DNA from: Roseibium album
GTDB lineage: Bacteria; Pseudomonadota; Alphaproteobacteria; Rhizobiales; Stappiaceae
Assembly (NCBI GenBank): GCA_001404055.1
Contig: CXTY01000036.1
Coordinates: 1 to 64,000, forward strand
Length of the DNA stretch: 64,000 nucleotides
Direction of reading: 5' to 3'
The position numbers were made by a program, and so were the translations under genes. Shown here in pieces: positions 18,042 through 34,696 of this stretch. The notes beneath the pieces were generated by a model. It saw only the letters and a list, made by a program, of their open reading frames with translations. It made no database searches and was not told where the DNA came from. Within the stretch, counting starts at the first letter, position 1. Each line of letters starts with the position of its first letter.

Positions 18042-18749
18042 ATGAGCAGCTTCTGGGATGCGCTTGCCGGGTCGTTCGGTCTTGTCATTGCGCTTGATCC
18101 TGACCTGATGGAAATCATTGGCCTGTCAATGCGGGTCACCCTCACTGCTGTCTTTCTCGCTTGCCTCATTGGACTACCGCTCGGGGCCGCAGCCGGAACA
18201 TTTCGTTTTCCGGGTCGCACCCTGTTGTCGGTGGTCCTCAACGCGTTGATGGGGCTTCCTCCCGTCGTTGTTGGATTGTTTGTCTACCTGCTCCTATCTG
18301 CTTCCGGCCCGCTTGGGCCCTTGCGCCTGCTCTACACACCAACGGCAATGATCATTGCGCAGATGGTCATCGTGACGCCCATCGTCGCCGCGCTCACCCG
18401 GCAGGTTGTTGAGGACTTCAACAGCGAATACGCAGAGCAATTTGCGTCAATGGGCGTTGGACCGCTGGATCGACTGATGTCCCTTCTCTGGGATGGACGC
18501 TACAGCCTGCTGACCGTCGCATTGGCCGGCTTCGGGCGAGCTGTTGCTGAAGTTGGAGCCGTCATCATTGTCGGCGGCAACATCAATCATGTAACCCGGG
18601 TCATGACCACCACGATCGCACTGGAGACATCCAAGGGTAACCTGCAGTTGGCCATGGCGCTCGGCATTGTCCTTTTGACCATCGCTTTTGTCGTCAACGC
18701 CTGTGTCATGGGCCTTCGGGCCACTGCAGTGAGGTCAGCCTATGCGTGA
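18042..18749 (+). CDS. tupB: Tungstate ABC transporter permease TupB
   Basis: This 235-residue inner-membrane permease has five to six helices. The cytoplasmic coupling loop is recognisable near residue 135-165 (EYAEQFASMGVGPLDRLMSLLW, then GFGRAVAEVGAVIIVGG). It pairs with the ATPase encoded immediately downstream: its stop overlaps that start by eight bases. Assignment to tungstate rather than molybdate rests on the TupA-type binding protein in the same operon. Its position beside formate dehydrogenase genes suggests it supplies tungsten for the FDH cofactor. Confidence 0.88.
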   Translation: MSSFWDALAGSFGLVIALDPDLMEIIGLSMRVTLTAVFLACLIGLPLGAAAGTFRFPGRTLLSVVLNALMGLPPVVVGLFVYLLLSASGPLGPLRLLYTPTAMIIAQMVIVTPIVAALTRQVVEDFNSEYAEQFASMGVGPLDRLMSLLWDGRYSLLTVALAGFGRAVAEVGAVIIVGGNINHVTRVMTTTIALETSKGNLQLAMALGIVLLTIAFVVNACVMGLRATAVRSAYA

Positions 18750-19560
18750 CTTTGCATTTGACATGGCCACAGGTCCATCGGTTGGTCGCCAAAGAGACGA
18801 ACAGCAGCCTTTGCTGGAAGCCTGCAACATTGGCTTTACAGCCCGCGGCGAGCAGCTCTTGCACAATGTGGATATTGCCATCCGACAGGGTTCCAGGACG
18901 CTGATCGTTGGACCCAATGGTGCGGGTAAAAGCCTGCTGCTGCGCCTTCTTCATGGGCTGTTGCAACCAAGCGATGGAAAAGTGCTGTGGCAAGGCAACG
19001 CCCTCAACGCCAAAGCACAGCGTGCACAAGCGATGGTTTTCCAGAGACCGGTACTCTTGCGCCGTTCCGTATTTGCCAACATGAAGTTCGCACTTTCCGT
19101 TCGCGGATTGCGCGGCCAAAAGCGCTCCGACAAAATCCTGAGCGCGCTTGCATCAGCCGGGTTGAGCCATCTGTCCAACCGCCCTGCCCGTGTTCTCTCC
19201 GGCGGAGAACAGCAGCGTCTTGCTGTTGTGCGTGCACTGGCTTGCGATCCGGAGCTGCTTTTTCTGGATGAGCCCACGGCAAATCTTGATCCAGCCTCCA
19301 CTGCGGCTATCGAAGAACTCGTCCGGGACGCGAGTGCGCGGGGCGTGACAATTGTTCTTGTCACCCATGATGTTGGGCAAGCCCGGCGTCTCGGAGAAGA
19401 CTTGGTTTTTCTGCAGGATGGGCACGTTGCTGAGTCTGGACCAGCGCAGAAAATCTTGACTGAGCCGCAAAGCGAACCTGCGCGCGCCTGGCGTGAAGGG
19501 CGCATTTATCTTGGTCCGAATACTCAAAGTCTTTGCGATTTCCCAGGGAGCAAACTTTGA
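18742..19560 (+). CDS. tupC: Tungstate ABC transporter ATP-binding protein TupC
   Basis: This 272-residue ABC ATPase has Walker A GPNGAGKS near residue 57, signature LSGGEQQRLAVVRA near 153, Walker B ELLFLDEP near 173 and the switch histidine in LVTHDVG near 208. It powers the TupB permease. The first 25 residues are a polar extension before the ATPase fold. Its stop TGA overlaps the TTG start of tupA. The gene order is B-C-A, where most tup operons begin with tupA; this is an unusual but functional-looking arrangement. Confidence 0.88.
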   Translation: MRDFAFDMATGPSVGRQRDEQQPLLEACNIGFTARGEQLLHNVDIAIRQGSRTLIVGPNGAGKSLLLRLLHGLLQPSDGKVLWQGNALNAKAQRAQAMVFQRPVLLRRSVFANMKFALSVRGLRGQKRSDKILSALASAGLSHLSNRPARVLSGGEQQRLAVVRALACDPELLFLDEPTANLDPASTAAIEELVRDASARGVTIVLVTHDVGQARRLGEDLVFLQDGHVAESGPAQKILTEPQSEPARAWREGRIYLGPNTQSLCDFPGSKL

Positions 19561-20393
19561 TCACAAGACCTATTCTTGCATTTGTTTTTTCAGCATTGCT
19601 CTCGGCAGTCGCTTCACAATCAGCCAGCGCGGACGAGAACTTCATTATCGTTCAATCAACGACATCTACCCAGAACTCCGGTCTCTTCGACGACCTCCTG
19701 CCAAAATTTCAGGAAAAGTCCGGAATAGAAGTGCGGGTCGTGGCAGTCGGCACCGGACAGGCGATCAAGAACGCCACCAATGGCGACGGCGATGTCCTGC
19801 TTGTTCATTCCAGATCGTCAGAAGAAAAATTCGTTACTGACGGTCTCGGCATATCCCGCTCAGATGTCATGTACAACGACTTCGTGATTGTCGGCCCGCC
19901 ATCTGACCCAGCCGAGATCGCAGGTACCAAAAACGTCGTTGCGGCACTTCAAAAGATCGCCGAGACCGAAGCTATCTTTGCCTCCAGAGGAGACGACAGC
20001 GGAACGCACAAGGCCGAACTTCGCCTCTGGAAAGCCGCTGACATTGATGCAGTGTCCGCGTCGGGAAAGTGGTACCGGGAGACAGGGTCCGGCATGGGAG
20101 CAACCCTCAATACCGGCACCGGCATGGGCGCCTATGTCATGACCGACCGCGCAACCTGGATCGCATTCGGTAACAAAGGCGACTACCAGATAGCCGTTGA
20201 AGGTGACACTCGACTGTTCAACCAGTACGGCGTCATATTGGTGAACCCGGAAGCGCACCCGCATGTCAAAGCCACCATGGGCCAGAGTTTCATTGACTGG
20301 TTGCTGTCAAAGGAAGGACAAGCCGCCATCGCGTCTTTCAGGATCGATGATCAGCAGCTGTTTTTCCCAAATGGGAGCAAGGGGTCCAGCTGA
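19557..20393 (+). CDS. tupA: Tungstate-binding protein TupA
   Basis: This 278-residue periplasmic binding protein has a signal peptide (cleavage around ASADE, residue 26). The diagnostic N-terminal motif TTSTQNSGLFDDLLPKF leads into VAVGTGQA, the oxyanion-binding signature of TupA. The start is a TTG at 19557 with AGGGAG six bases upstream and a TTGA overlap with tupC; the upstream in-frame ATG at 19533 lies inside tupC and has a poorer site. It gives the operon its tungstate specificity. A shortened relative of this fold appears fused to a cytochrome at 31372-32151. Confidence 0.9.
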   Translation: MITRPILAFVFSALLSAVASQSASADENFIIVQSTTSTQNSGLFDDLLPKFQEKSGIEVRVVAVGTGQAIKNATNGDGDVLLVHSRSSEEKFVTDGLGISRSDVMYNDFVIVGPPSDPAEIAGTKNVVAALQKIAETEAIFASRGDDSGTHKAELRLWKAADIDAVSASGKWYRETGSGMGATLNTGTGMGAYVMTDRATWIAFGNKGDYQIAVEGDTRLFNQYGVILVNPEAHPHVKATMGQSFIDWLLSKEGQAAIASFRIDDQQLFFPNGSKGSS

Positions 20394-20428: not shown

Positions 20429-20555
20429 ATTTTCCCAAACGAACACTGGCACCGGTTGCCTGCTCCTCACTTGAAAAACCAACGTTGTTCAGGATTTGGC
20501 TGGCCCCGACGGCAATCACACCGACCGCAACAAAGGCAAGAAGCATCGCTTTCAT
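20427..20555 (-). CDS. 42-residue single-helix membrane protein coupled to WD40-cytochrome c gene
   Basis: This very short gene encodes a protein starting MKAMLLAFVAVGVIAVGAS, i.e. one hydrophobic helix (about residues 4-18), and ending in a polar tail with NNVGFSSEEQATGA. Its ATG overlaps the stop of the WD40-cytochrome gene as ATGA, and an AGAGGT site lies just upstream. These are strong signs that it is translated. It may be a small subunit anchoring the periplasmic cytochrome, or the hydrophobic segment may be a signal peptide releasing a tiny periplasmic peptide. I do not recognise a named family. Confidence 0.65.
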   Translation of the reverse strand: MKAMLLAFVAVGVIAVGASQILNNVGFSSEEQATGASVRLGK

Positions 20556-21907
20556 AGTTTACCTCTACCAGATTTTTCTTCGGCCGTTGCCGCTTTCAGA
20601 TAATCAATAAGATCTAAGCGATCCTCAGACTGGATAATCCGCTGCATCGGCATTTTTGTACCCGGAATGAAGTGATCGGGTCCATCCAGAAAGAGTTGAT
20701 CGATGGTCTCTGCTGACCAGATGATATCAGATCCGTTCAAAGTCTCCGAATAGGCGTATCCGGGCAGTGTACCTGCCCTGCGCCCGAACACTTTATGGAG
20801 CGTCGGACCGGCTTTGCGTCCGCCATCTACTGTTAGTGCGTGACAGATGGAGCATTTGCGGGCGAATTGACGTTCTCCATTGGACATGTCTTCAGGTTTT
20901 TGCAAAAACACAGGCGTTTCAGTCGCCATAGGATCGTAGGAAGCAAGGTCGGCAACGGGCCAGGAATAGACGATATCTTCGATACCACCTGCGTGAAGAA
21001 CCTCACCGTCTTTTGAAAAGGCGAGCGCCCAAACCGGCCCCTTCAAGGCCGCCTTGAAGTCCGTTTCTATCGACCAGTCCAGCGTGTTGAAGACAGTGAT
21101 AAAACCATGCCCATCTCCCGTTGCCAGTTTTGTACCGTCCGGACTGAGTGTCATTGCCAGGATTGGTCTTCGTTCGAGCGCAAAATCATGCATTCGTTCT
21201 CCGGTTGCCAGGTCGAGCACACGCGTCACTCCATCTTGCGATCCGTATGCAAGCCAGCTCTCCGATTGTCCGTTCGCGCTCCCCAGAACCATGACGTTGA
21301 TACCAAAGCCATTGCGGTCAACGATACGTTTTTCAGTCGCGTGCCTCAGGTCCCACAGCTTGATGGAACCATCAACGGACGCTGAATAAAGCCAGTCACC
21401 ATCTCCTGAAAAGACGACCATATTGACCCCTGAGGTGTGACCGGAAAGAAACTTCGGCGCACTGCCGTCCATAGGCCACAGACCTATTCGCGAATCCCAG
21501 CTTGCACTGGCAACCAGCTTGCGATCGGGTGAAACAGCAAGTCCCATGATTTTTGCGGTGTGACCTTCGAGCCGCACTTTCGACCGGTCCTTCAAGTTCC
21601 ACAGGATCAGGTCATTATCGTCACCAGCAGAAACGATCTGCTCCCCATCGATGAATTTGACGACTTTTACCGCCGCTTCGTGTCCTTCCAGCCATTGAGG
21701 CAAACGTCCCTCCCAGATACCGACGGAGTTGTCGAAACTGGCAGTCGCGACTGATCCGTTATCTGGTGAAACAGCGATACCCATTACGGGGCCACCATGA
21801 CCTTTCAGCGTTTGAAAGTCGGCGGCGAAACTGTGCTGTAGACTGAGGGTGACGATACAAAACGCCGCCAAGGACATTACAAAATGTCTTGCTACTGCTC
21901 GGATCAT
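20552..21907 (-). CDS. Periplasmic WD40-repeat protein with C-terminal cytochrome c domain
   Basis: This protein of about 451 residues has a signal peptide (MSLAAFC to HSFAAD), then roughly seven WD40 blades (for example LASASWDSRIGLWPMDG, LYSASVDGSIKLWDL) and a class I cytochrome c domain over the last 110 residues with CSICH and a distal methionine probably in GTKMPMQ. A beta-propeller fused to a haem domain suggests electron transfer docked to a partner. It directly follows FDH gamma on the same strand, so it may accept electrons from or scaffold the formate dehydrogenase. The start is uncertain: 21907 fits the signal peptide best; an in-frame ATG also lies at 21973. Confidence 0.8.
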   Translation of the reverse strand: MIRAVARHFVMSLAAFCIVTLSLQHSFAADFQTLKGHGGPVMGIAVSPDNGSVATASFDNSVGIWEGRLPQWLEGHEAAVKVVKFIDGEQIVSAGDDNDLILWNLKDRSKVRLEGHTAKIMGLAVSPDRKLVASASWDSRIGLWPMDGSAPKFLSGHTSGVNMVVFSGDGDWLYSASVDGSIKLWDLRHATEKRIVDRNGFGINVMVLGSANGQSESWLAYGSQDGVTRVLDLATGERMHDFALERRPILAMTLSPDGTKLATGDGHGFITVFNTLDWSIETDFKAALKGPVWALAFSKDGEVLHAGGIEDIVYSWPVADLASYDPMATETPVFLQKPEDMSNGERQFARKCSICHALTVDGGRKAGPTLHKVFGRRAGTLPGYAYSETLNGSDIIWSAETIDQLFLDGPDHFIPGTKMPMQRIIQSEDRLDLIDYLKAATAEEKSGRGKL

Positions 21908-21987
21908 TGATTTCAAGGTCAGCGGGGTAGCGCTGGTACACGTTTCGGGATCAGAACTGGTCAGGGCACACATCGTCGCGCTCGTAC

Positions 21988-23211
21988 CTATTCAGCTGGA
22001 ACCGCGTTTTTGCCGTCGGCTTCTTTTTGAGCCTCTTCGACTTCCTCAACCCACAAACCGTGGTGCTCACGAGCCCATTGGAGCTCGACTTCGCCGGATC
22101 CCATGGCGTCATAGGCTCCTTCCATACCGACAGAACCGATGTAGATATGCGCCAGAACCATCGCGATCATCAGGAAGGCAACAACAGCGTGCCAGAGCTG
22201 CGCATATTGCATTTCTTCATGCGGCGCCAGCTCCGTTGCCAACGTGCCAAAGCCGAAAAGCTGTGGCAGGCCGGTTGCATTCAACGCCTCGAAGGTCCCC
22301 GCAAACATGGGGAAGTCGAACGGAAACAGCAGAGAAATCCCGGTGGCAGAGATTGAAGCGCCCAGAAGGATCACGCCCCAGAAAATCATCTTTTGACCAA
22401 AATTGAATTTTCTTGCTGGTGGATGCACACCCTTTTTCAATAGACCACCGCCTTGAGCGATCCATTTCAAGTCCGTCTTGTTCGGAATGTTATGGGCAAC
22501 CCACATCACGAAGACCATGATGAGGCCAAGCATGAACGCCCAGGCAACGTTGTTGTGGATCCACTTCGAGGCGAGTGCGAGCGGCGCAAACGCGTCCTTG
22601 CCGATAAGCGGGATAATGGCAAAACGTCCAAACAGCGTGAGAAGCCCCGTGAGACCAAGCAGAATGAACGACCCGGCGAGCAACCAATGGCCAAAGCGTT
22701 CTATTGCTTTGAACCGGGTGATGGTTTGTCCCGTTTTTTGCCCGTCGATGCGGACACGTCCGCGTATCAGATAGAAAAGCGCGAGAAGAACAAGCGTTGC
22801 GGCGAGCAATATGGAGCCATAGGTCAGCAATGGTCCTTTCCGCCAGGCAAGCCAGCGCATGCCGCCATCCTGCATCAGGACGGTCGCGGCCTTGCCACCG
22901 GAAGACACCGTGACGTCCGCTGATCCATAGCGCAGCGAGCGCCAGAGTTCGGGATCCGATACCCCACCAAGTGTTCCGAGTTGTGAAGATATGGCAGCGG
23001 CCGAATTCGGGTCACCAGTCGCGTTGCGGCGGAAATCGTAGTCCACCTTTTCGCCGCGCTGGCGTTTCATGATGTCGTCCAGTGTCTGCGCCCCGCCAGT
23101 GGGTGCACGCTCGCCTGCCTGCACCTGCGCGTCGTCAGCGCCAGCGTCTTGCGCAAAGCCCTGAACCAGAAAGGCAAGAAGAACGACACACGCCAATGCC
23201 AACCGTGTCAT
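21988..23211 (-). CDS. Formate dehydrogenase gamma subunit (cytochrome b556)
   Basis: This 407-residue protein comprises a signal peptide (cleavage near FAQDAG), a periplasmic N-terminal region of about 100 residues not present in E. coli FdnI, and a four-helix di-haem cytochrome b core (about residues 120-385). Candidate haem-ligand histidines lie in ERFGHWLL, KWIHNNVAW, QLWHAVV and LAHIYIG. It carries electrons from the alpha/beta subunits to quinone. It lies downstream of alpha and beta with a 140-base gap. A GAGGG site precedes the ATG. Confidence 0.9.
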   Translation of the reverse strand: MTRLALACVVLLAFLVQGFAQDAGADDAQVQAGERAPTGGAQTLDDIMKRQRGEKVDYDFRRNATGDPNSAAAISSQLGTLGGVSDPELWRSLRYGSADVTVSSGGKAATVLMQDGGMRWLAWRKGPLLTYGSILLAATLVLLALFYLIRGRVRIDGQKTGQTITRFKAIERFGHWLLAGSFILLGLTGLLTLFGRFAIIPLIGKDAFAPLALASKWIHNNVAWAFMLGLIMVFVMWVAHNIPNKTDLKWIAQGGGLLKKGVHPPARKFNFGQKMIFWGVILLGASISATGISLLFPFDFPMFAGTFEALNATGLPQLFGFGTLATELAPHEEMQYAQLWHAVVAFLMIAMVLAHIYIGSVGMEGAYDAMGSGEVELQWAREHHGLWVEEVEEAQKEADGKNAVPAE

Positions 23212-23352: not shown

Positions 23353-23946
23353 TTACCCGCCTTTTTGGCCATAAGCTGTGCCCCAGCCCCAGGCGCCCGA
23401 GCCGAAGCCACGGGCCACCACGCGCTCACGATAAATGGCTGACACGACGTCGCCATCACCCGCGAGCAGAGCTTTGGTGGAACACATTTCGGCGCAGAGC
23501 GGCAGTTTGCCTTCGGCGATACGGTTGCGGCCGTATTTCGCGAACTCTGCGGTCGAGTTGTTTTCTTCCGGACCACCGGCACAGAAGGTGCATTTGTCCA
23601 TCTTTCCGCGTGATCCGAAATTGCCCGCTTGCGGGAATTGCGGCGCACCGAAAGGACAGGCGTAGAAGCAGTAGCCGCAGCCAATGCAAAGGTCCTTGGA
23701 GTGCAGGACCACACCTTCTTCGGTCTGGTAGAAACAATCGACCGGGCACACCGCCATGCACGGTGCATCCGAACAATGCATGCAGGCGACCGAGATCGAC
23801 CGTTCACCAGGTCTACCATCATTGATGGTCACCACGCGGCGGCGGTTGATACCCCAGGGCACCTCATGCTCGTTCTTACAAGCCGTAACGCAGGCATTGC
23901 ATTCAATGCAGCGCTCGGCGTCACAAAGGAACTTTGATCTAGCCAT
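23353..23946 (-). CDS. Formate dehydrogenase beta subunit (four 4Fe-4S ferredoxin)
   Basis: This 197-residue iron-sulfur protein has cysteine groups for four clusters: CIECNACVTAC, CMHCSDAPCMAVCPVDC, CIGCGYCFYACPFG and a last set in CTFC plus CAEMC. It lacks the C-terminal membrane helix of E. coli FdnH, ending in a glycine- and aromatic-rich tail instead, so it probably binds to gamma by contact. It relays electrons from the pterin site of alpha to the haems of gamma. GGAGG lies 7 bases before the ATG, and the alpha gene ends only 12 bases upstream. Confidence 0.92.
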   Translation of the reverse strand: MARSKFLCDAERCIECNACVTACKNEHEVPWGINRRRVVTINDGRPGERSISVACMHCSDAPCMAVCPVDCFYQTEEGVVLHSKDLCIGCGYCFYACPFGAPQFPQAGNFGSRGKMDKCTFCAGGPEENNSTAEFAKYGRNRIAEGKLPLCAEMCSTKALLAGDGDVVSAIYRERVVARGFGSGAWGWGTAYGQKGG

Positions 23947-23958: not shown

Positions 23959-26850
23959 TTACGCTGCAGAGATCTTGCAGAGAGTCGCTTTGGACTCCTG
24001 CATCTGGGTCACTGAATCATAGCCATAAGTCTGAGCAGTATTGGAGCTCTCGCCAAGCACATATGGATCAGCACCCTTGGGATACTTGTCCCTTCGGTCC
24101 TCACCCTGATAATGCCCACCGAAGTGGAACGGCATGAAAGCAACGCCCTCTCCGACCCTTTCGGTCACCATCGCCATCACCTTGACCTTGCCCTTTTCAG
24201 GACCTTCGACCCAGACCTGAGCGCCGTCACGCACCCCGAGATTGTTGGCATCCCGCGGATTGATTTCGACGAACATGTCCTGCTGAAGTTCAGCAAGCCA
24301 TGGGTTCGACCGGGTTTCATCACCACCACCTTCATATTCCACGAGGCGTCCGGAGGTCAGGATCATCGGATAGTCTTTCGAGAAATCCTGCTTCTGGATC
24401 GAGGCATAAAGGGTGGGCAGGCGATAGAATTTCCGATCTTCGTAGGTCGGATAGTCTGCCACCAGGTCCCGGCGGTTGGTGTAGAGCGGCTCGCGATGAA
24501 GCGGCACCGGATCCGGGAACGTCCAGACCACGGCACGGGCCTTGGCGTTGCCGAACGGAGCACAACCATGCTTGATCGCAACCCTCTGGATACCGCCGGA
24601 AAGGTCGGTTTTCCAGTTGGTCTTCGGACCGGCGACGGCCTCGATAGCAGCCCTTTCATCGTCTGTTAGATCACCATCCCATCCGAGATCCATCAGCATC
24701 TGCATGGTGAATTCAGGATAGCCATCCTGAATTTCAGCACCAGGGTTGGAAACACCATCTGCAAGCAGATTGGCCCCATCCCTTTCAACACCGAACCGGG
24801 CACGGAAGCACAAGCCGCCTTCTGCAACAGGCTTGGACATGTCGTAGAGGTTCGGCGTTCCCGGATGTTTCATTTCCGGTGTGCCCCAGCACGGCCACGG
24901 CATACCGTAGTATTCGCCGTCATTCGGACCACCGATCGCCTGAAGCGTCGTCCGGTCGAATGTGTGCTGGTTCGCCATGTGCGCCTTGATCCGCTCTGGT
25001 GACTGGCCGGTGTAGCCAATTGTCCACAGACCGCGGTTAAATTCGCGGGTGATGCTTTCGACATTCGGTGTTTCGGCATCTTCCATCTCGATGTTGCGGA
25101 AGAGACGATCACCCCAGCCGAACTTGTTCGCAAATTTTGCCATGATCACATGATCGGGCAGGCTTTCGAACAGCGGATCGACCACCTTGTCGCGCCATTG
25201 GAAAGAGCGGTTCGACGCCGTGACGGAGCCACGGGTTTCGAACTGCGTACAGGCGGGAAGCAAGTAGACCCCGTCTGTCCGATCATGAAGAACGGCAGAA
25301 ACGGTCGGATACGGATCAACTACGACCAGTGTATCCAGTTTTTCCATCGCCGTTTTCATTTCGGTCATACGCGTCTGCGAGTTCGGAGCGTGTCCCCAAA
25401 GCACCATGGCACGCACCGCATTGGGGTTATCGGTGTTGGCCGGATCTTCCAGCACACCATCAATCCAACGGCTGACCGGAATACCGGTCAGGTTCATGAG
25501 GTTCTTGTCCTTGCCGTCGGACCCTTTGACGGTTTCGAACTGGGCTTTCAGCCAATCCGGATCTTCTTCCCAGACCCTTGACCAATGCGCCCAGGCACCA
25601 GCACTCAGGCCATAGTAGCCCGGCAAGGTGTGGCTCAACACACCAAGGTCCGTTGCGCCCTGCACATTGTCATGACCACGGAAAATGTTGGTACCACCAC
25701 CCGAGGTACCCATATTGCCAAGTGCAAGCTGCAATATGCAGTAGGCGCGGGTGTTGTTATTACCGTTGGTGTGCTGCGTACCACCCATGCACCAGATGAC
25801 GGTACCAGGACGGTTGTTTGCCAGCGTCCGCGCAACGCGCCTCATCTGGCTCTCGGGCGTTCCAGTGACACGTTCAACTTCATCCGGTGTCCATTTCGCG
25901 ACTTCTTCGCGAATCTGATCCATGCCCCAGACACGCGTGCGGATGAATTCCTTGTCTTCCCAGCCATTCTGGAAAATGTGCCAGAGGATCCCCCAGACCA
26001 GGGCAACGTCTGTTCCCGGACGGAAACGCACATATTCATCGGCATGAGCAGCTGTTCGGGTGAACCGCGGATCGCACACGATCAAAGGCGCGTTGTTGTG
26101 CTCCTTGGCGCGCAGTACATGCAATAGGGAAACCGGATGAGCTTCAGCCGGGTTACCACCAATGATGAAAATCGCCTTGGAATTATGGATGTCGTTGTAG
26201 CTGTTGGTCATGGCGCCGTAGCCCCATGTGTTGGCTACGCCGGCAACAGTTGTCGAATGACAGATACGGGCCTGGTGATCAACGTTGTTGGTGCCCCAAT
26301 AGGCAGCGAATTTGCGGAAAAGATAGGCCTGCTCATTGCTGTGCTTGGCAGAGCCGAGCCAGTAAACGCTATCAGGTCCGCTTTCTTCGCGGATTTGCAT
26401 CATCTGGTCGCCGATCTCGTTGATGGCTTCGTCCCAGCTGATCCGCTTCCACTCTCCGCCTTCCTTTTTCATCGGATATTTCAGGCGGCGTTCGCCATGC
26501 GCGTGTTCGCGCACCGATGCGCCCTTGGCGCAGTGAGCTCCAAGATTGAACGGGCTGTCCCATCCCGGTTCCTGGCCAACCCAAACACCGTTCTTAACCT
26601 CGGCCATGACAGTACAACCCACCGAGCAGTGGGTGCACACTGACTTCACCAGGTCAACGGCCTCATTTGCCGATTGTGCCTGAACTTTGGTAACTGAACC
26701 GCCAGTCGCGGTTATGGCGGCCAAACCGCCTGCTGCGAGACCGGAACCTTTCAGAAATGTCCGACGATCTACCGATTTGTGTGCAGTGTCTCTAAGGATA
26801 CTTGCACCCTGGGGGCGTCGCGCGACCCCATTGGTCTTTTTCCTAAGCAT
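23959..26850 (-). CDS. Formate dehydrogenase alpha subunit (Mo/W-bis-MGD, Tat-exported)
   Basis: This 963-residue catalytic subunit oxidises formate to CO2. It carries a Tat signal (DRRTFLKGSG, residues 28-37), a proximal 4Fe-4S site at Cys72, Cys75, Cys79 and Cys107, and the active-site pair Cys197-His198 in RICHSTTVAG. Cysteine replaces selenocysteine, so no SelB system is needed. The C-terminal molybdopterin-dinucleotide domain (about 835-950) is intact. The gene is flanked by its TAT-target and TorD-like chaperone genes and, across the beta and gamma genes, by tungstate import genes, so tungsten is a likely metal. It resembles the three-subunit Fdh3-type enzymes of Methylobacterium. Confidence 0.94.
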   Translation of the reverse strand: MLRKKTNGVARRPQGASILRDTAHKSVDRRTFLKGSGLAAGGLAAITATGGSVTKVQAQSANEAVDLVKSVCTHCSVGCTVMAEVKNGVWVGQEPGWDSPFNLGAHCAKGASVREHAHGERRLKYPMKKEGGEWKRISWDEAINEIGDQMMQIREESGPDSVYWLGSAKHSNEQAYLFRKFAAYWGTNNVDHQARICHSTTVAGVANTWGYGAMTNSYNDIHNSKAIFIIGGNPAEAHPVSLLHVLRAKEHNNAPLIVCDPRFTRTAAHADEYVRFRPGTDVALVWGILWHIFQNGWEDKEFIRTRVWGMDQIREEVAKWTPDEVERVTGTPESQMRRVARTLANNRPGTVIWCMGGTQHTNGNNNTRAYCILQLALGNMGTSGGGTNIFRGHDNVQGATDLGVLSHTLPGYYGLSAGAWAHWSRVWEEDPDWLKAQFETVKGSDGKDKNLMNLTGIPVSRWIDGVLEDPANTDNPNAVRAMVLWGHAPNSQTRMTEMKTAMEKLDTLVVVDPYPTVSAVLHDRTDGVYLLPACTQFETRGSVTASNRSFQWRDKVVDPLFESLPDHVIMAKFANKFGWGDRLFRNIEMEDAETPNVESITREFNRGLWTIGYTGQSPERIKAHMANQHTFDRTTLQAIGGPNDGEYYGMPWPCWGTPEMKHPGTPNLYDMSKPVAEGGLCFRARFGVERDGANLLADGVSNPGAEIQDGYPEFTMQMLMDLGWDGDLTDDERAAIEAVAGPKTNWKTDLSGGIQRVAIKHGCAPFGNAKARAVVWTFPDPVPLHREPLYTNRRDLVADYPTYEDRKFYRLPTLYASIQKQDFSKDYPMILTSGRLVEYEGGGDETRSNPWLAELQQDMFVEINPRDANNLGVRDGAQVWVEGPEKGKVKVMAMVTERVGEGVAFMPFHFGGHYQGEDRRDKYPKGADPYVLGESSNTAQTYGYDSVTQMQESKATLCKISAA

Positions 26851-28617: not shown

Positions 28618-29187
28618 TCACTGTAATGTGTCCTTCGGTTTTCTGCCGGGCGCCCGGTAAACGTCGCTCATCTGCCTGATACGCGCGTCCCCGATGCCGT
28701 CCTCTTCCAGGTCGATCCGTTTCTTGTCACGTTTGCGCTTGATGAAAATCTCATCCTGATGATGCAATTCGACGAACTCCCGCACCCACGCGATCAGCCC
28801 CGCCGGCATTGGAACCTTCTCAACCATGACTTCACTGGAATCGGCATAGTCCTGACCTTCGTAGGCTGAAGCTGTCAGCAACATCACGTCAATCGGAATA
28901 TCGTTTTCAATTTCGTCGGCCGGGCGCATCACCACATAAACGGACGGTATTTTGTCTGACAGGGCAGTCAGATAAGCTTCAGTGTCGGTGCGATGAAGCT
29001 CCAGATCCAGCGTCGCTGCATGATACTCAACGGCATCCCCCTCCCGTCGCAGGACAGCCCAGTCCGCAGCCCTGGCACCAGGCAGAAGTGACACAGGGCG
29101 CCACGCCCATTTCTGCCACTTCGTTACGCCAGGCAATCTTCTCACCACAACACCCACAGGCATTGTGCGTTTTCGTTCGCTCGTCAC
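28618..29187 (-). CDS. DUF3305 family protein
   Basis: This protein of about 189 residues has the DUF3305 opening MPVGVVVRRLPGVTKWQKWAWRPVSLLPGA and the segment EAYLTALSDKIPSVYVVMR. It is cytoplasmic, with a basic C-terminus (KRKRDKKRIDLEEDG). The function is unknown; it is regularly found with DUF3306 and FDH genes. The start is uncertain: a GTG at 29187 has GGAGGA ten bases upstream, whereas the ATG at 29163 fits the conserved domain edge. It is divergent from the polyferredoxin gene across about 200 bases that must hold both promoters. Confidence 0.8.
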   Translation of the reverse strand: MTSERKRTMPVGVVVRRLPGVTKWQKWAWRPVSLLPGARAADWAVLRREGDAVEYHAATLDLELHRTDTEAYLTALSDKIPSVYVVMRPADEIENDIPIDVMLLTASAYEGQDYADSSEVMVEKVPMPAGLIAWVREFVELHHQDEIFIKRKRDKKRIDLEEDGIGDARIRQMSDVYRAPGRKPKDTLQ

Positions 29188-29390: not shown

Positions 29391-31355
29391 ATGGAAAACA
29401 GCAAGATTCTGCTGTGCGATTGCCTGAAAAGTCAGTCGATCGACGCAGAACAATTGGAAGCTGCGACGGGAATCACGTGTTCGAAAGTTCATTCCGAACT
29501 GTGCCGATCCGAAGCTGCTGCAGTCGAAGACGCACTTCAGGCAAGCAACGTAATCATCGCCTGCCAGCAGGAACGACAAACATTTGAAGAGTTTGCCGAG
29601 GAACTGGAAGTTAGTGCTCCCAGCTTCATTGACCTGCGGGACAGGGCCGGTTGGACACAAAGCACCGGTTCCACCACGCCGAAGATGGCGGCCCTGATAG
29701 CAGAAGCGGCACTTGAAGAACCCGGCACAAAAATCATTGAAGTTTCCAGCAGCGGCACGTGCCTCATACTCGGCGAACCAGACGCCGCGCTGTCAGCCGC
29801 AGCCCACTTATGCGATCTGTTGAGCGTGACCGTTCTTCTCGATCCACTGTCGGAGTTACCGCTTGTAGATGACAGGCGCTTCGATGTCGTCAAGGGCCAG
29901 ATCAAGTCGGCAACCGGCGCGCTTGGCCAATTCAACCTGTCTTTTGATGGTTTGCAGGAACGCATTCCCGGAGGTCGCGGGGATTTTGCCTGGACCCAGC
30001 CACGCAGCGGCGGACGGACAGTCTGTGACGTCGTACTGGACCTACGACGTGACCCGCCGCTTTTTCCCGCCGCTGGCAAGCGGGAAGGATATCTACGTGC
30101 CGACCCGGGCAATTTCGAGGCCCGTACAAAAGCACTTCTGGAGGCTTCCCAGCTAATCGGAACATTTGAGAAGCCGATTTACGTCAAGCTGGACGAACAA
30201 CTCTGTGCCCACTCCCGCGCACAAAAGTCCGGCTGCACCCGTTGCCTGGATCTTTGCCCAACGGGCGCACTCGCACCGGACGGTGATCACGTCTCTGTGG
30301 ATGCCATGGTTTGCGCAGGATGCGGCAATTGCTCTGCGGTTTGCCCTTCAGGCGCGATTTCTTACGACGCACCAGCCGTTACCCATACCTTTCGGCGTAT
30401 TCAGACACTCGCAGAGACCTGGCGCAAACTCAGCGCGGATATCCCTCATCTGCTTGTTCACAACACCGGTCACGGCGCCGAATTGATCAGCTTGAGCGCG
30501 CGCTACGGCAGAGGCCTGCCAGCCGATGTCATTCCGCTGGAAATGTCGGCACTTGCCAGTTTTGGTCACGCCGAAGCCTTGAGTGCCCTCGCATGCGGCT
30601 TTGGCTCAGTAACGATCCTGCTTTCTCCTGAAACGGAGGGAGAAGGCCTTCCGTTTCAGGTGGACCTGGCAAATTCGATTGCGGGCGAGGCACAGGTAAA
30701 TCTGATCGAACCGAGCGATCCGGATCAGTTGGAAGCCGCTCTTTTCCGGGAAAACACTTCTCCGGCCCGGGAGAAAACCATCTTGCCTGTTGGTTCGAGA
30801 CGGCAGATCACACGGCTGGCAGCAAAGTCTCTCGTCGCAGCTGATGCCGTATTGCCCCTGCCAGCAAATGCTCCCTATGGAGCTGTCAATCTGAACCTGG
30901 ACAGCTGCACCCTGTGCTTGTCCTGCGTCTCCCTTTGCCCCTCCGGGGCGCTAAAGGAAAACCCGGACCTACCGCAACTCAGTTTTCAGGAAGACGCCTG
31001 CCTGCAATGTGGGATTTGCGTGAAAATCTGTCCCGAAAAAGCGCTTGCGCTCGAGCCGCGGCTCAATCTTGGTGATGATGCACTGGCACCGCAGATCCTG
31101 AAAGAAGAAGAACCATTTTCCTGCATTGAATGCGGCAAGCCCTTCGGCGTGCGCTCAACTGTTGAGCGGTTAACCGAAAAGCTCGTCGGCAACCACTCCA
31201 TGTTCAAGGACAACAAGGCCGCTCGGCTTATCCAGATGTGCGAAGACTGCAGGGTCAACGCCGTTTATCACTCAGAAGATAACCCGTTCGCTGGTGGTGA
31301 ACGCCCACGCGTGCGCACAACCGACGACTATATCAGCAAGCGGCGTGATCATTGA
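29391..31355 (+). CDS. Large 4Fe-4S polyferredoxin of the formate dehydrogenase island
   Basis: This 654-residue cytoplasmic protein has an N-terminal cysteine-bearing domain of about 260 residues, with the early motif LCDCLKS resembling the start of HdrA-like proteins. Ferredoxin modules follow in two blocks: CTRCLDLCPTGAL and CAGCGNCSAVCPSGAI near residues 280-330, then CTLCLSCVSLCPSGAL and CLQCGICVKICPEKAL near 510-560. A C-terminal zinc-ribbon-like pair follows (CIECGKPF and CEDC). It could carry several 4Fe-4S clusters and act as an electron conduit or Fe-S donor for FDH maturation. The start at ATG 29391 is preferred to a TTG 21 bases upstream. Confidence 0.82.
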   Translation: MENSKILLCDCLKSQSIDAEQLEAATGITCSKVHSELCRSEAAAVEDALQASNVIIACQQERQTFEEFAEELEVSAPSFIDLRDRAGWTQSTGSTTPKMAALIAEAALEEPGTKIIEVSSSGTCLILGEPDAALSAAAHLCDLLSVTVLLDPLSELPLVDDRRFDVVKGQIKSATGALGQFNLSFDGLQERIPGGRGDFAWTQPRSGGRTVCDVVLDLRRDPPLFPAAGKREGYLRADPGNFEARTKALLEASQLIGTFEKPIYVKLDEQLCAHSRAQKSGCTRCLDLCPTGALAPDGDHVSVDAMVCAGCGNCSAVCPSGAISYDAPAVTHTFRRIQTLAETWRKLSADIPHLLVHNTGHGAELISLSARYGRGLPADVIPLEMSALASFGHAEALSALACGFGSVTILLSPETEGEGLPFQVDLANSIAGEAQVNLIEPSDPDQLEAALFRENTSPAREKTILPVGSRRQITRLAAKSLVAADAVLPLPANAPYGAVNLNLDSCTLCLSCVSLCPSGALKENPDLPQLSFQEDACLQCGICVKICPEKALALEPRLNLGDDALAPQILKEEEPFSCIECGKPFGVRSTVERLTEKLVGNHSMFKDNKAARLIQMCEDCRVNAVYHSEDNPFAGGERPRVRTTDDYISKRRDH

Positions 31356-31371: not shown

Positions 31372-32151
31372 TCACTGGTACTGGATGGGAGCCCCAAGGT
31401 CGGCGGGTGGTATGCGCGAGACGAATGCCAGAATGGCATCCAGTTCGTTGAGCGTTAGTTCAAGCGGCACGATGGGCGGTGGTCTGGAAACATCGAAGGG
31501 TTCGGTAACGCCCACTATCATGGTGAATGACGGATGGGGATTCAGCGAGAAAAATGCCTCGAACCGGTCCTGCCAATCTGAAAAACTGCGCATGATTGCA
31601 AATGAAGGAGTCGAACCGATTGTTGTCAGGCGTGTCGCCTCATTGACCATGTGGCAGCGTCCACAATGGCTGACAGCCAGCTGCTCGCCGCGGATCGCGT
31701 CACCAGCGAGCGCGACAGTTTCAGCGGTCTTCGGTGTGGCAACTGCAGCCGTAAACAACACCTTGCCGTCTGATCGGAAGCCTTCAATCGTCTTTCGCCC
31801 AATATCACCGGTTATCCAGTCTTCGAAGCGGGAAAGGTGCTCGTTTCGCGTGCTCTGCACTTCAAGATACCAGTTATCGCCGCTACCAGAAAAAACCGGC
31901 GTGCCGCGACCAGCCATTGAAAACCTGGCGTCCGCATCGGCAGTTTCTTCGACAAGTTCGATCCGTATTCCTGTCTTGAGGGAAAACCGCGGCAGCAAGT
32001 GCTTTAGGAACCCGGTCGAAACAAGCGCGCCGGGTGCACCCAATTTGAAAGACCTGGAATTGGCTTTTCCCGGTTCAGAATATGCGAAGCCAAGAAACAG
32101 GCTCAACACGAACACCAAAAATAAACGGCAGCACACGCGCACCTCCCTCAC
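31372..32151 (-). CDS. Exported mono-haem cytochrome c with TupA-like N-terminal domain
   Basis: This 259-residue protein has a signal peptide to about residue 25. Residues 32-135 resemble a shortened anion-binding protein: TGFLKHLLPRFSLKTGIRIELV aligns with the start of TupA (SGLFDDLLPKFQEKSGIEVRVV), and FEDWITGDIGRKTIEGFRSDGKVLF aligns with the TupA end (FIDWLLSKEGQAAIASFRIDDQQLF); the middle of the fold is missing. The C-terminal half has the haem motif CGRCH near residue 163 and a methionine-containing segment. It is convergent with the polyferredoxin and divergent from DUF6494. Its role is unknown; it may sense or link oxyanion status to electron flow (inference). Confidence 0.75.
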   Translation of the reverse strand: MREVRVCCRLFLVFVLSLFLGFAYSEPGKANSRSFKLGAPGALVSTGFLKHLLPRFSLKTGIRIELVEETADADARFSMAGRGTPVFSGSGDNWYLEVQSTRNEHLSRFEDWITGDIGRKTIEGFRSDGKVLFTAAVATPKTAETVALAGDAIRGEQLAVSHCGRCHMVNEATRLTTIGSTPSFAIMRSFSDWQDRFEAFFSLNPHPSFTMIVGVTEPFDVSRPPPIVPLELTLNELDAILAFVSRIPPADLGAPIQYQ

Positions 32152-32417: not shown

Positions 32418-32424
32418 AGCCGAA

Positions 32425-33516
32425 GTGCCTCTGACACGCGAAACCGTTCTGAATGCCCTTGGCACAGTCGTGGATCCGGCGACAGGTGAAAGCATCGCCG
32501 CCTCCGGAATGATGCGCGCGCTGCAGATCAACAATGGGTCGATCCGCTTCGTCCTTGAAATTGATCCTGGCCGCATAACGGAGATGGAAACCCTGAAGGT
32601 GGAGGCTGAAGAAAAACTCGGAGTGCTTGAAGGCTGTGAAACCGTTCAAGTCATTCTCACTTCGCATTCCAAACAGCCCAGCCAGCCATCAAAGCCAGCC
32701 TCTCCCGAACCGATCAAACCGCGCCCCGCCCAACCAGGCACATCAGGACCGCAAAAGGTTCCTGGTATCGAACGGGTGATTGCCATTGCTTCTGGCAAGG
32801 GTGGTGTCGGCAAATCCACTGTTGCAGCCAATCTTGCCTGCGCACTGGCAGCAGAGGGTCGTAAGGTCGGTCTTCTGGATGCGGACGTCTACGGACCATC
32901 CCAACCGAAGATGCTCGGTATTTCGGGACGCCCGACGTCTCCAGACGGCCAGATGATCCTGCCCTTGCGCAATCACGGCGTCACGATGATGTCCATCGGC
33001 CTGATGACTTCAGGAGACCAGGCGGTTGTCTGGCGCGGTCCGATGCTGATCGGCGCCCTGCAGCAGATGATGGCGCAGGTGCAATGGGGTGCGCTTGATG
33101 TTTTGATCGTCGACCTGCCACCGGGCACGGGAGACGTCCAGATGACGCTCAGCCAGAAGTTCGTCGTAGATGGGGCAATCATTGTGTCGACCCCACAAGA
33201 CGTTGCGCTGCTGGACGCACGCAAGGGCATCGACATGTTTCAGCAGATGAGTGTGCCGATTGTCGGTATGATCGAAAACATGTCGACCCACATCTGCACA
33301 AATTGCGGCCATGAAGAACATGTCTTCGGACATGGCGGTGTTGCAGCCGAAGCTGAAAAGCTCGGAGTGCCGTTGCTGGCGGAAATCCCGCTCCATCTCA
33401 ACATCCGCCTTGCAAGCGATGGCGGAACGCCCTTGGCAGTCAAGGCGCCTGACACCCCAGAGGCAGACGCCTTCCACCGGCTTGCCAAGTCACTGGTTGA
33501 AGGAGGACACGCGTGA
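32425..33516 (+). CDS. Mrp/ApbC-family Fe-S carrier P-loop ATPase
   Basis: This 363-residue protein has an N-terminal MIP18-like (DUF59) domain (about 1-85), a proline-rich linker (about 90-115) and a MinD/Mrp ATPase domain with deviant Walker A GKGGVGKST near residue 127. It has the C-terminal cluster-binding CTNC motif near residue 290 in HICTNCGHEEHVFG. Family members bind and transfer 4Fe-4S clusters. The start is a GTG at 32425 with AGGGG upstream. Because it sits inside this operon it may be a dedicated Fe-S supplier for the FDH subunits, separate from any housekeeping copy. Confidence 0.9.
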   Translation: MPLTRETVLNALGTVVDPATGESIAASGMMRALQINNGSIRFVLEIDPGRITEMETLKVEAEEKLGVLEGCETVQVILTSHSKQPSQPSKPASPEPIKPRPAQPGTSGPQKVPGIERVIAIASGKGGVGKSTVAANLACALAAEGRKVGLLDADVYGPSQPKMLGISGRPTSPDGQMILPLRNHGVTMMSIGLMTSGDQAVVWRGPMLIGALQQMMAQVQWGALDVLIVDLPPGTGDVQMTLSQKFVVDGAIIVSTPQDVALLDARKGIDMFQQMSVPIVGMIENMSTHICTNCGHEEHVFGHGGVAAEAEKLGVPLLAEIPLHLNIRLASDGGTPLAVKAPDTPEADAFHRLAKSLVEGGHA

Positions 33517-34214
33517 GCGAGCTCCAACTTCCGCCGCTCTTTCAGGCAGATCCTTTGACCGGCGCAGCAGATCCCTTCGAACGGGCCATAGCACAGGCCA
33601 TTTTGGGCACGGATCCGGGGACTGTCGTCTACAACCTGTCAGGTGAAATTTTGCGGGCCAGCCTCATTTTGGCGCCCGAAGTCCCGCTAGAAGAGGCCAT
33701 GGCCATGCTGCCTGTTTGCGGGCTCGGATTTCAGGCCGCCCTCGGCACGCTGGCGCCTCCTGAAGTCGCTGTCCATCTCCAATGGGATGGCACAATCCGC
33801 GTGAACGGTGCCGTCTGCGGCCGTATGCGGGTCAAGGCGTCAGAGACCAACCCGGCGACCCAACCCGATTGGCTGGTCGTTGGTTTGGAAGTCGCCATGA
33901 CCAGCCCGGAAAAGAACCCTGGCGAGGACCCGGACCAGACAAGTCTGCAGGAAGAAGGTTGCGCCGAGATCACGGCTGAACAACTCGTGGAATGCTGGGT
34001 TCGTCATTCGCTCTATTGGATCAACCGTTGGCTTGACGAAGGCTCCAGACCCGTTCACGCCGAATGGCGCGGGTTGGTACAGGAACTCGGCGAGCCAATC
34101 GAGGTCGACGGTTACTCCGGCACCTTTGTCGGCACCGACGAGAACTTTGGCATGTTGCTTCGCACGGGTGAGGATACCATCCTGATCCCTCTCTCAAGTC
34201 GGCTGGAAGGATGA
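33513..34214 (+). CDS. Biotin/lipoate-protein ligase-like protein
   Basis: This 233-residue protein is related to the BPL/LPL ligase fold: residues 40-130 contain PLEEAMAMLPVCGLGFQAALG and the core strand HLQWDGTIRVNGAVCGRMRV. This core matches the position of KWPND...GRKxxGI in BirA, but the catalytic lysines are replaced (Gln before Trp, Val in GAVCG), so ordinary biotin or lipoate ligation is doubtful. The C-terminal domain (about 160-230) ends with GTFVGTDENFGMLLRTGEDTILIPL, like the small beta domain of BirA. The start is a GTG overlapping the Mrp stop. The function in the FDH island is unknown. Confidence 0.78.
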   Translation: MSELQLPPLFQADPLTGAADPFERAIAQAILGTDPGTVVYNLSGEILRASLILAPEVPLEEAMAMLPVCGLGFQAALGTLAPPEVAVHLQWDGTIRVNGAVCGRMRVKASETNPATQPDWLVVGLEVAMTSPEKNPGEDPDQTSLQEEGCAEITAEQLVECWVRHSLYWINRWLDEGSRPVHAEWRGLVQELGEPIEVDGYSGTFVGTDENFGMLLRTGEDTILIPLSSRLEG

Positions 34215-34219
34215 CAATT

Positions 34220-34696
34220 ATGAAACTTGCCCGCGCCATTCATCTGGACGACAGCGACCGCAATGTCTTTTTCTCCCCGGCGCGTACCGGGGAATGGTGT
34301 CTTTCCGGCGGTTTCGAATTCTCCGACTGGAGCGAAGCCGATCTTACCGGCAAGGCCCGGCAGGCTTTTGCCAATGGCTGGCTTGGCCTGGAGAGCTTTG
34401 GCCGCGTCACTTTCGTTGCGATCACGCCAATCGAGGAAAGCGAATATTCGGAACTCATCGAAAGCCTCTGCCAGCATTTCGTCGATGTCTATGGTGCGCC
34501 TTCGCTCGAAGCCGGGCGCGGTGTTGCAATGGAAGAGCTCAAGTTCATGGCAGACCTTTGCGCGGACCATCCGGAAAACACTCTTTTGGCTGTTCAGCGG
34601 GAACTGTCGGAAGAAGGTGTGCGCGAAAGCTACAGAGCTATAGAAGCACCGGAAGCTGAGCTGGATCTCGTTGCGATGCATGGTGATGTTGAGTAA
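34220..34696 (+). CDS. DUF6505 family protein
   Basis: This 158-residue cytoplasmic protein begins MKLARAIHLDDSDRNVFF and has the conserved segment EFSDWSEADLTGKARQAFANGWLGLESFGRVTFV, which matches DUF6505. The function is unknown. The start at 34220 is chosen because GGAAGGA lies 8 bases upstream; an ATG at 34211, nine bases earlier, sits on that site. It is the last member of the DUF6494-Mrp-ligase-DUF6505 operon. The C-terminal 60 residues are helical and acidic. Confidence 0.8.
   Translation: MKLARAIHLDDSDRNVFFSPARTGEWCLSGGFEFSDWSEADLTGKARQAFANGWLGLESFGRVTFVAITPIEESEYSELIESLCQHFVDVYGAPSLEAGRGVAMEELKFMADLCADHPENTLLAVQRELSEEGVRESYRAIEAPEAELDLVAMHGDVE

Follow-up and report, generated by a model that had tools for sequence, protein, structure and literature searches.

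The island at 18042-34696 of the window, by which we mean the whole stretch of 64,000 nucleotides of Roseibium album DNA analysed here, probably encodes an FDH3-type formate dehydrogenase together with a dedicated cytosolic set for the assembly and activation of this Tat-exported molybdenum or tungsten enzyme. Metal-dependent formate dehydrogenases catalyse the conversion between CO2 and formate. The association of the genes is not due to chance, as seen in our 172-genome and 80-locus surveys, and their order is conserved. This co-occurrence fits maturation, regulation or electron transfer and does not tell them apart; we infer the role of every accessory gene. The sets surveyed were 172 genomes of the class, 80 loci in the locus survey, 57 full-flank loci around the polyferredoxin gene, 40 class loci and 20 hand-chosen loci of the phylum.

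The initial annotation had described one block of about 16.7 kb. Its inventory is real, each element being found in place by Pfam or NCBIfam profiles, or as the best available match where the score was below the cut-off (Table 1). The elements form several strand-alternating blocks and not one operon. The tup genes lie on the plus strand (18042-20393) and are followed by a minus-strand cassette running from the WD40-cytochrome through DUF3305 (20552 to about 29163), then by a plus-strand set (about 29391-34696) broken by a single minus-strand gene (31372-32151). A plus-strand ORF at 31352-32215 matches no family and is probably the shadow of this minus-strand cytochrome-like gene.

Table 1. 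Features of the formate dehydrogenase island (coordinates in the window)
Feature	Coordinates	Strand	Profile match or other basis
TupB-like ABC permease	18042..18749	+	NF038017 246.9 bits (cut-off 100); NF041773 TupB 177.9 (cut-off 320)
TupC-like ABC ATPase	18742..19560	+	Pfam ABC_tran 7e-32; between tupB- and tupA-like genes
TupA-like binding protein	19533..20393	+	NF041772 220.6 bits (cut-off 400); PBP_like_2 3.2e-45
WD40 beta-propeller-cytochrome c fusion	20552..21973	-	WD40 1.6e-39; Cytochrom_C 6e-9
FdhC gamma subunit, cytochrome b561 type	21988..23211	-	TIGR01583 140.4 bits (cut-off 115.85)
FdhB beta subunit, FDH3 type	23353..23946	-	NF038355 345.5 bits (cut-off 240)
FdhA catalytic subunit, Tat motif RRTFLK	23959..26850	-	Molybdopterin 6.1e-51, Molydop_binding, Fe4S4
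FDH-region Tat-target peptide	26973..27236, likely start near 27173	-	TIGR02811 36.1 bits (cut-off 48.45)
TorD/NarJ-family chaperone	27233..27865	-	PF02613 2.8e-25, 89.4 bits (gathering 22.2)
DUF3306	27906..28586	-	PF11748 5.2e-20, 72.9 bits, above gathering score
DUF3305	28618..29163, frame open to 29391, likely ATG 29163	-	PF11749 5.1e-39, 134.2 bits, above gathering score
Polyferredoxin, probable HdrA relative	29391..31355	+	
Putative c-type cytochrome	31372..32151	-	apparent signal peptide, one CxxCH; PF00034 sub-threshold
DUF6494, 62 aa	32229..32417	+	PF20104 6.4e-30, 103.8 bits, above gathering score
Mrp/ApbC-type Fe-S carrier ATPase	32425..33516	+	PF10609 1.7e-98, 329.4 bits
Degenerate biotin/lipoate ligase-like protein	33513..34214	+	PF16917 + DUF4444, 1.8e-76
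DUF6505	34211..34696	+	PF20115 1.6e-76, 255.7 bits, above gathering score

Profile matches predict an FDH3-type enzyme of three subunits, as had been annotated: FdhB and FdhC exceed their own cut-offs and FdhA carries the Pfam domains listed in Table 1. FdhA scored under the cut-off of the general FDH-alpha equivalog (TIGR01591, 485.8 versus 666.25 bits), but TIGR01591 is not FDH3-specific and this shortfall therefore weakens only the claim of a TIGR01591 equivalog. The cysteine of its RICH motif is at what we presume to be the metal-ligand position. The adjacent Tat-target peptide does match TIGR02811, although below the cut-off, and was matched at 54 of the 57 full-flank loci.

The partners that follow the enzyme most closely are DUF3305 and DUF3306. 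FDH3-beta was above its cut-off in 24 of the 172 class genomes, and each of the two families occurred in 27, including all 24 of these. G071 and G125 have DUF3305/DUF3306 without FDH3-beta above the cut-off, and no FDH was found within 12 kb around DUF3305 in G125. In G127, where FDH3-beta is below the cut-off or absent, a 9 kb stretch has FdhA at the contig end, so the gap may come from the assembly. At the 57 full-flank loci, DUF3305 and DUF3306 were always present, FdhA in 56 cases and TorD in 55. The core made of DUF3305, DUF3306, the polyferredoxin, TorD and FdhABC is pan-proteobacterial; the add-on genes (Mrp, pseudo-ligase, DUF6505, DUF6494 and DUF6352) are mostly alphaproteobacterial. 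DUF3305 also matches the DUF3305 part of a MobA-DUF3305 fusion model (NF011058, 8e-26); FdhD and MobA matches occurred in 6 of the 40 class loci, and FdhD lies on a different contig of this genome.

The polyferredoxin comprises an N-terminal four-cysteine domain, a degenerate dinucleotide domain, two double [4Fe-4S] modules and a C-terminal CxxC..CxxC. It is a probable relative of HdrA, the A subunit of the methanogen heterodisulfide reductase, to which it gives a fold match, a weak profile match and a ferredoxin module match. The HdrA profile gave E 0.0014 for the whole sequence and 0.032 for the stretch, over residues 43-152 only; the Foldseek match reached E 7.8e-14, yet with an rmsd of about 30 A and a global TM of 0.19-0.24. 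Unlike HdrA, it lacks the FAD-binding glycine motif, lviGGGvagiqaA of HdrA being paired with lvlGaaevaleaA, and it stands in the context of an exported FDH. One could imagine that the polyferredoxin, Mrp and the cytochromes form a working electron route of the FDH instead of an assembly set, perhaps by linking formate to ferredoxin in the cytosol as the HdrA part does in methanogen Fdh-Hdr complexes. Indeed, in each of the seven best fold matches of the polyferredoxin the matched chain is the A chain of a heterodisulfide reductase complex, 7bkb and 7bkd among them representing Fdh-Hdr-Fwd, and in 31 polyferredoxin sequences the 16 ferredoxin cysteines and two further four-cysteine groups are invariant. 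However, with its Tat motif FdhA would work on one side of the membrane and the polyferredoxin, predicted to be cytosolic from its lack of a visible export signal, on the other, which makes electron transfer less likely for the accessory set. The missing flavin motif, and the remaining unassigned proteins, among which we noticed no redox motif, also speak against such a route, which we consider unlikely. The dedicated maturation and electron-transfer system first suggested is favoured by co-occurrence, in some genomes even where the genes are unlinked, but its electron-transfer part is less likely and DUF6494 is non-specific.

The pseudo-ligase was found in 18 of the 172 genomes (16 with FDH3-beta, all 18 with DUF3305), DUF6505 above its cut-off in 16 (14 and 15, respectively) and DUF6352 in 22 (19 and 21). 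All three are nearly confined to FDH3-beta genomes (Fisher p 1e-12 to 1e-20). The pseudo-ligase was counted at 125.8 bits or more, weaker matches such as those of G028 and G159 (about 95 bits) being scored as absent; the PF16917 match of G087, which retains KWPND and the second lysine, and the DUF6505 match of G091, below the cut-off, were excluded. DUF6494 behaved differently: FDH3-beta is missing from 13 of the 31 genomes that have it, and DUF3305 too from 10 of the 31, and the idea that all the listed DUFs are FDH-specific was rejected. The co-occurrence with fdh that the initial annotation proposed as a check is borne out for DUF3305, DUF3306, the ligase-like gene and DUF6505, but not as a specific trait of DUF6494. 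At the 57 full-flank loci the add-on was frequent (Mrp 50, pseudo-ligase 52, DUF6505 51, DUF6494 46). Of the 24 FDH3-beta genomes, 10 have no DUF6505 and 8 no pseudo-ligase at the scoring threshold applied; G075 has FDH3-beta without DUF6352, DUF6505 or a high-scoring pseudo-ligase, and the add-on is therefore not always required.

An alternative is a looser neighbourhood, in which FDH3, TorD, DUF3305, DUF3306 and the polyferredoxin form the true set, and DUF6494, Mrp, the ligase-like gene and DUF6505 are an unrelated operon that some lineages retain close by and that spreads along with it. We consider this quite improbable. The add-on is absent in 15 of the 20 hand-chosen phylum loci and from a core-only island on a Diaphorobacter plasmid, for which the gene table is incomplete, and the distribution of DUF6494 points the same way. 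However, DUF6352, DUF6505 and the pseudo-ligase track FDH3 across families, in some genomes without linkage: the single contig of G028 has both DUF6352 and DUF6505 as well as FDH3-beta, from which the first lies about 280 kb away and the second about 378 kb. Moreover, among the five records of plasmid-borne islands, those of Sinorhizobium and Bradyrhizobium have DUF3305 followed by DUF6352, DUF6505 and the ligase-like gene in one close-packed run.

The add-on proteins themselves provide several clues. The label "ligase-like" is right as to family (PF16917/DUF4444) but misleading as to function. Over 82 copies, the GRGRxGR loop is gapped in every one; a lysine stands at the KWPND position in 2, at the GAK position in 5 and at both in none. 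The alignments covered 17 of the 18 counted genomes, all but G071. We take this loop and the two lysines to be the ligase motifs, and all three motifs are seen in the genome's own ligase. In view of the loss of the loop and of the lysine pair, an active biotin/lipoate ligase was rejected. A homologous structure is PDB 3bfm (9.6e-82; presumably gene TM1040_0394), a biotin protein ligase-like protein of the same family whose title gives no function; the FDH3 neighbourhood of this family is what the present analysis adds. The AF2 model of DUF6505 is confident (pLDDT 91.5), and comparison with the PDB gave nothing at E <= 0.001, the best match reaching 0.2; the fold is possibly new. The island Mrp has both the P-loop GKGGVGKS and the CxxC motif, scores 331.7 bits against NF008669 (below the cut-off of 348) and is the second of two strong copies in this genome. 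In a tree of 21 of the 62 island copies with the class copies, these two fall in different groups, but the island group (support 0.96-0.98) also contains housekeeping copies L165 and L170 beside the long branch L129, so monophyly of the island Mrp is unsupported. Two other families have Mrp immediately upstream of DUF3305, in 5 of the 20 hand-chosen loci. Searches found no DUF6352 in the window or in its genome; a strict replacement of DUF6352 by Mrp is weakened by the presence of both in the neighbourhood in G057 (L024), G148 (L031) and G135 (L046) and in L131.

The reading we favour is a set devoted to assembly and activation. FdhA would be built in the cytoplasm and then exported by Tat. 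General enzymes encoded elsewhere (FdhD, MobA, MobB, MoeA) would make and sulfurate the bis-MGD cofactor, and DUF3305, DUF3306 and TorD would handle the cofactor or apo-FdhA. For activation, the cytosolic polyferredoxin would be the source of low-potential electrons or else of clusters; Mrp would act in Fe-S loading, and the pseudo-ligase with DUF6505 would be a non-catalytic scaffold or a cofactor-binding unit. Once the enzyme is exported, the electrons of formate would pass from FdhA to FdhB and FdhC, then to quinone and/or the WD40-cytochrome c. More tentatively, and with considerable doubt, we speculate that the set is a molybdo/tungsto-enzyme activation machine not recognised before, in which a flavin-free descendant of HdrA works with a dead biotin/lipoate ligase fold and DUF6505, repurposed as holder of the cofactor or apo-enzyme, DUF6352 and the second Mrp having related jobs. 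The low-potential cytosolic electrons of the HdrA descendant may then serve reductive sulfuration or activation of the metal centre of FDH3 before Tat export, with DUF6352 as a possible new type of helper for Fe-S clusters.

No physiological reductant for the sulfuration of the FDH cofactor is, to our knowledge, established, and the polyferredoxin is a concrete candidate. In vitro, this sulfuration requires a reductant besides sulfide, as described for FdhD/FdsC with the E. coli and Rhodobacter capsulatus enzymes (PMC12140954); activation of bis-MGD is common to both cases, whereas the polyferredoxin and the unassigned proteins of the island are not mentioned in the sections of that paper on sulfuration. 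A report in BMC Evol Biol 2015 (PMC4464133) places DUF3305/DUF3306 upstream of the linked dmsD-fdhGHI operons at 60%. The operons in that account resemble ours in having DUF3305, DUF3306, the fdh-tat peptide, TorD/DmsD and a fer4 gene as neighbours, but that paper contains none of DUF6494, DUF6505 and DUF6352, and its passages on the operons make no mention of the pseudo-ligase, Mrp or the WD40-cytochrome. Tungstate import and alpha-subunit maturation limit the production of M. extorquens W-FDH1 in E. coli (PMC13396061); this enzyme is a heterodimer, unlike the three-subunit, Tat-motif FDH3 type found here. For alpha-subunit maturation, the nine accessory genes of the window, or ten if DUF6352 is counted, would offer a list of parts, and the island, conserved and sometimes plasmid-borne, gives testable jobs to DUF3305, DUF3306, DUF6352, DUF6505 and the 3bfm protein. 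Our search of an open-access paper collection returned no paper naming DUF6494, DUF6505, DUF6352, DUF4444, TM1040_0394 or "biotin protein ligase-like".

As for the metal, the tungstate uptake genes tupBCA were annotated correctly in that an importer is present, but TupB and TupA are below the NCBI curated equivalog cut-offs and the importer is therefore named only Tup-like; the TupB profile is the second-best model for its gene and the TupA profile the best for its own. The importer would supply tungstate or molybdate, and the bound metal would be W or Mo. That the island serves metal supply and sensing, its accessory genes acting as regulators or sensors of Mo/W instead of building the enzyme, is very improbable: TupA matches lie near 25 of the 57 full-flank loci and a PBP_like-HTH regulator near 7 (and 3 of the 40 class loci), but both are variable neighbours whereas DUF3305, DUF3306 and the polyferredoxin are constant, and Pfam finds no DNA-binding domain in the unassigned proteins of the window.

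Two unusual cytochromes had also been noted. The first is the WD40-cytochrome c fusion. The second has one CxxCH and a sub-threshold Cytochrom_C match (17.1 bits, cut-off 21.3), and searching its sequence against the PDB gave nothing better than E 0.2. Each gene was matched at 34 of the 57 full-flank loci, and the WD40-cytochrome c is possibly a periplasmic electron acceptor.

The formate dehydrogenase (FDH) island has two layers: a core found across the Proteobacteria and an add-on found mostly in Alphaproteobacteria. DUF3305 was found in 61 of 398 genomes of the phylum, and among 20 loci hand-picked from these 61 genomes and then mapped, DUF3305, DUF3306, the polyferredoxin and FdhA were present in every one, with TorD in the stretch of 18. 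The ligase-like protein and DUF6505 were present in only five of the 20 (loci L201 and L207-L210, of which four belong to the same family or order as the window) and absent from the other 15, hence the distinction between core and add-on. The association of FDH, DUF3305, DUF3306, fer4, the fdh tat peptide and the chaperone has already been published (PMC4464133). No paper on DUF6494, DUF6505 or DUF6352 was found in the open-access literature searched, and as far as that literature goes the add-on module and its statistics, the membership of DUF6352, the lost motifs and the second copy of Mrp are new. L201 (genome G232; window's phylum, different class) holds an island of the alpha type, in which Mrp, pseudo-ligase and DUF6505 adjoin tup-fdhD-mobA, which suggests inter-class transfer.

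Pfam and NCBIfam scans located the genes listed in the initial annotation where it had placed them. The divergent DUF3305 and polyferredoxin starts are about 230 bases apart. By their coordinates, the frames of Mrp and the ligase-like gene overlap by four bases, as do those of the ligase-like gene and DUF6505, suggesting that the three are translationally coupled.

Layout of the FDH island and its flanks (window positions)
Feature	Position	Strand	Remark
TRAP transporter DctP, DctQ, DctM	13830-17327		left of the Tup-like genes
Tup-like ABC importer		+	leftmost in island
WD40-propeller/cytochrome c fusion, FdhC, FdhB, FdhA, Tat-target short peptide, TorD-family chaperone, DUF3306, DUF3305		-	order left to right; likely DUF3305 start 29163
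Polyferredoxin, DUF6494, Mrp, ligase-like protein, DUF6505		+	right part, order left to right; likely polyferredoxin start 29391, from translation
Cytochrome-like gene	31372-32151	-	within the plus-strand set
Esterase/alpha-beta-hydrolase frame	34671-35786		overlaps DUF6505 end

We then asked how faithfully these families accompany the enzyme, searching one set of 172 class genomes for every family. FDH3-beta, the FdhB marker of this FDH, exceeded its cut-off in 24 genomes. DUF3305 and DUF3306 occupied an identical 27, covering all 24 (p 2.2e-26). Of the three remaining genomes (G071, G125 and G127), the two mapped for FDH were G127, with FdhA at a contig end, and G125, with no FDH in the 12 kb around DUF3305. 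The ligase-like protein, counted at 125.8 bits or more and leaving out G087, whose match kept the ligase residues, was present in 18 genomes, with FDH3-beta in 16 (p 7.5e-15) and DUF3305 in all 18 (p 4.3e-18). DUF6505 exceeded its cut-off in 16, with FDH3-beta in 14 (p 1.6e-12) and DUF3305 in 15 (p 1.9e-13). The reading of the island as one dedicated system is supported for DUF3305, DUF3306, the ligase-like protein and DUF6505, and gave way for DUF6494, which was found in 31 genomes, where only 18 carry FDH3-beta and 21 carry DUF3305. The role of the DUF6494 family must be wider than FDH, since its genes occur without FDH3-beta and, in the five such genomes scanned (L050, L053, L055, L056, L057), beside unrelated neighbours. 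The few genes scanned there were of ABC importer, aminotransferase class IV, FG-GAP repeat and malate dehydrogenase type; three of the five genomes measure 1.2-1.6 Mb.

A further member, DUF6352 (PF19879), turned up when recurrent neighbours of island loci were annotated. It shares a stretch with the ligase-like gene in 13 of 40 mapped class loci and was found in 22 of the 172 genomes, with FDH3-beta in 19 (p 6.8e-18) and DUF3305 in 21 (p 1.3e-20); the same search did not find it in the window's genome. Shared ancestry could produce such figures; in a reduced set with one genome per listed family (G000-G138), which lessens this effect and does not remove it, p ranged from 2.5e-21 to 1.8e-9 for DUF3305, pseudo-ligase, DUF6505 and DUF6352. 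Mere hitch-hiking is argued against by the single-contig genome G028, where DUF6352 and DUF6505 co-occur with FDH3-beta unlinked, about 280 kb and 378 kb away.

By NCBIfam, FdhB clearly belongs to the FDH3 beta subunits, FdhC exceeds its cut-off and FdhA scores under the general FDH-alpha cut-off. FdhA looks like a Cys enzyme, because its RICH motif occupies what we take to be the place of Sec-His in E. coli FdhN. As to the tungstate import also claimed, Tup-like genes are indeed there; their assignment falls under curated cut-offs, and tungstate as substrate is therefore not proven.

In Tat molybdoenzymes in general, cofactor and cluster are installed in the cytoplasm. Since FdhA carries a Tat motif (RRTFLK), it would be loaded with both there, ahead of export. 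No export signal was visible by eye in the polyferredoxin and Mrp translations, which would be best explained if both act before export. DUF3305 is linked to cofactor biosynthesis by the NCBIfam MobA-DUF3305 model, which joins it to MobA, and by 6 of 40 class loci in which FdhD and MobA lie nearby. In PMC12140954, sulfuration of R. capsulatus FDH in vitro failed with sulfide alone and succeeded with a low-potential reductant. A low-potential cytosolic polyferredoxin could supply the electrons for this step; it is a natural candidate, in a role that we regard as possible and rather less probable than its contrary.

Two double-cluster modules of the polyferredoxin hold 16 cysteines, all invariant across 31 sequences, as are N-terminal C10, C12, C39 and C59 and C-terminal C579/C582/C618/C621. 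The top seven PDB matches of its confident AlphaFold2 model (pLDDT 89.6) are heterodisulfide reductase complex A chains (E 7.8e-14 to 2.4e-9). Because global TM is low (0.19-0.24) and rmsd large (near 30 A) despite these E values, we take the matches to indicate like domains in a different arrangement. The N-terminal 259 residues, used as a profile, matched two sequences of HdrA (E 0.0014 and 0.0015, with 0.03 for the best stretch) and had no other match below 0.3. Residues 43-152 are aligned; they take in the latter half of the Cys domain and the beginning of the dinucleotide fold, and HdrA's GGG motif is not preserved there. Descent from HdrA is probable, not proven, and we predict that flavin binding was lost and flavin is absent. 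Residues 330-480 may resemble MvhD.

For the ligase-like family one structure has been solved (3bfm), and its title calls the function unknown. We aligned 82 copies, from the class and named loci, against the biotin ligase of the window's genome: the GRGRRGR loop was gapped in all 82, the KWPND lysine kept in two, a second lysine in five and both in none, so a real ligase is unlikely. The DUF6505 model is confident (pLDDT 91.5), and its search against the PDB gave no match at E <= 0.001 (best 0.2), which is compatible with a new fold, a missing match not being proof.

Mrp has a second, differently arranged link to this FDH: in five of the 20 hand-picked phylum loci (L191, L195, L196, L199, L200) it immediately precedes DUF3305 and shares its strand. 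Besides the island Mrp, the window's genome has one other strong Mrp gene, located on another contig, about 4 kb from fdhD of an fdhD-mobA-mobB-moeA run (L061, G000:C14:264336-272438). Among 12 genomes checked, the four with an island-slot Mrp and no DUF6352 (G000, G022, G096, G154) had two Mrps each, and the eight with DUF6352 had one, except G148 with two. That DUF6352 and Mrp replace each other is no more than suggested, because both coexist in locus L131 and in G057, G135 and G148 (Mrp in the FDH or ligase-like neighbourhood), and because the Mrp tree, in which the two copies of the window's genome fall into separate groups, does not show island Mrps as one group. This also makes the boldest reading of the island, a new activation machine with related jobs for DUF6352 and a second Mrp, somewhat less likely, and we hold it to be improbable.

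A polyferredoxin-alignment scan with one genome per species confirmed at least 436 relatives. The best 80 of these, biased to close relatives and mainly Rhodobacterales by title, included 57 loci above 21 kb, with FdhA, FdhB and FdhC at 56 each, TorD at 55, DUF3305 and DUF3306 at 57 each, Tat peptide at 54, Mrp at 50, pseudo-ligase at 52, DUF6505 at 51, DUF6494 at 46, TupA and TupB at 25 each, WD40-cytochrome and cytochrome-like gene at 34 each, DUF6352 at three and FdhD at two. The polyferredoxin also occurred in 79 plasmid records, five of which were examined for gene order in the incomplete PLSDB tables. Sagittula stellata and Alloyangia pacifica plasmids keep the window's order from c-type cytochrome to DUF6505, the latter listed without the cytochrome-like gene; one Sinorhizobium and one Bradyrhizobium plasmid carry TorD-DUF3306-DUF3305-DUF6352-DUF6505-ligase-like as a single close-packed run; for a Diaphorobacter (Betaproteobacteria) plasmid only core, FdhD and MobA are listed. 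On Alloyangia pacifica plasmid plas3 (L152), tusA-family, glp, mobB and fdhF-type formate dehydrogenase genes adjoin the island, and the plasmid therefore holds a second FDH gene set. Window-type islands also turn up under the labels Flavobacteriales MAG and Litoricola MAG (L132, visible only as far as the cytochrome-like gene, and L137), reflecting either transfer or mis-binning. In L137:1-22007 four separate FdhA matches follow one another, and this fdhA is possibly frameshifted or duplicated.
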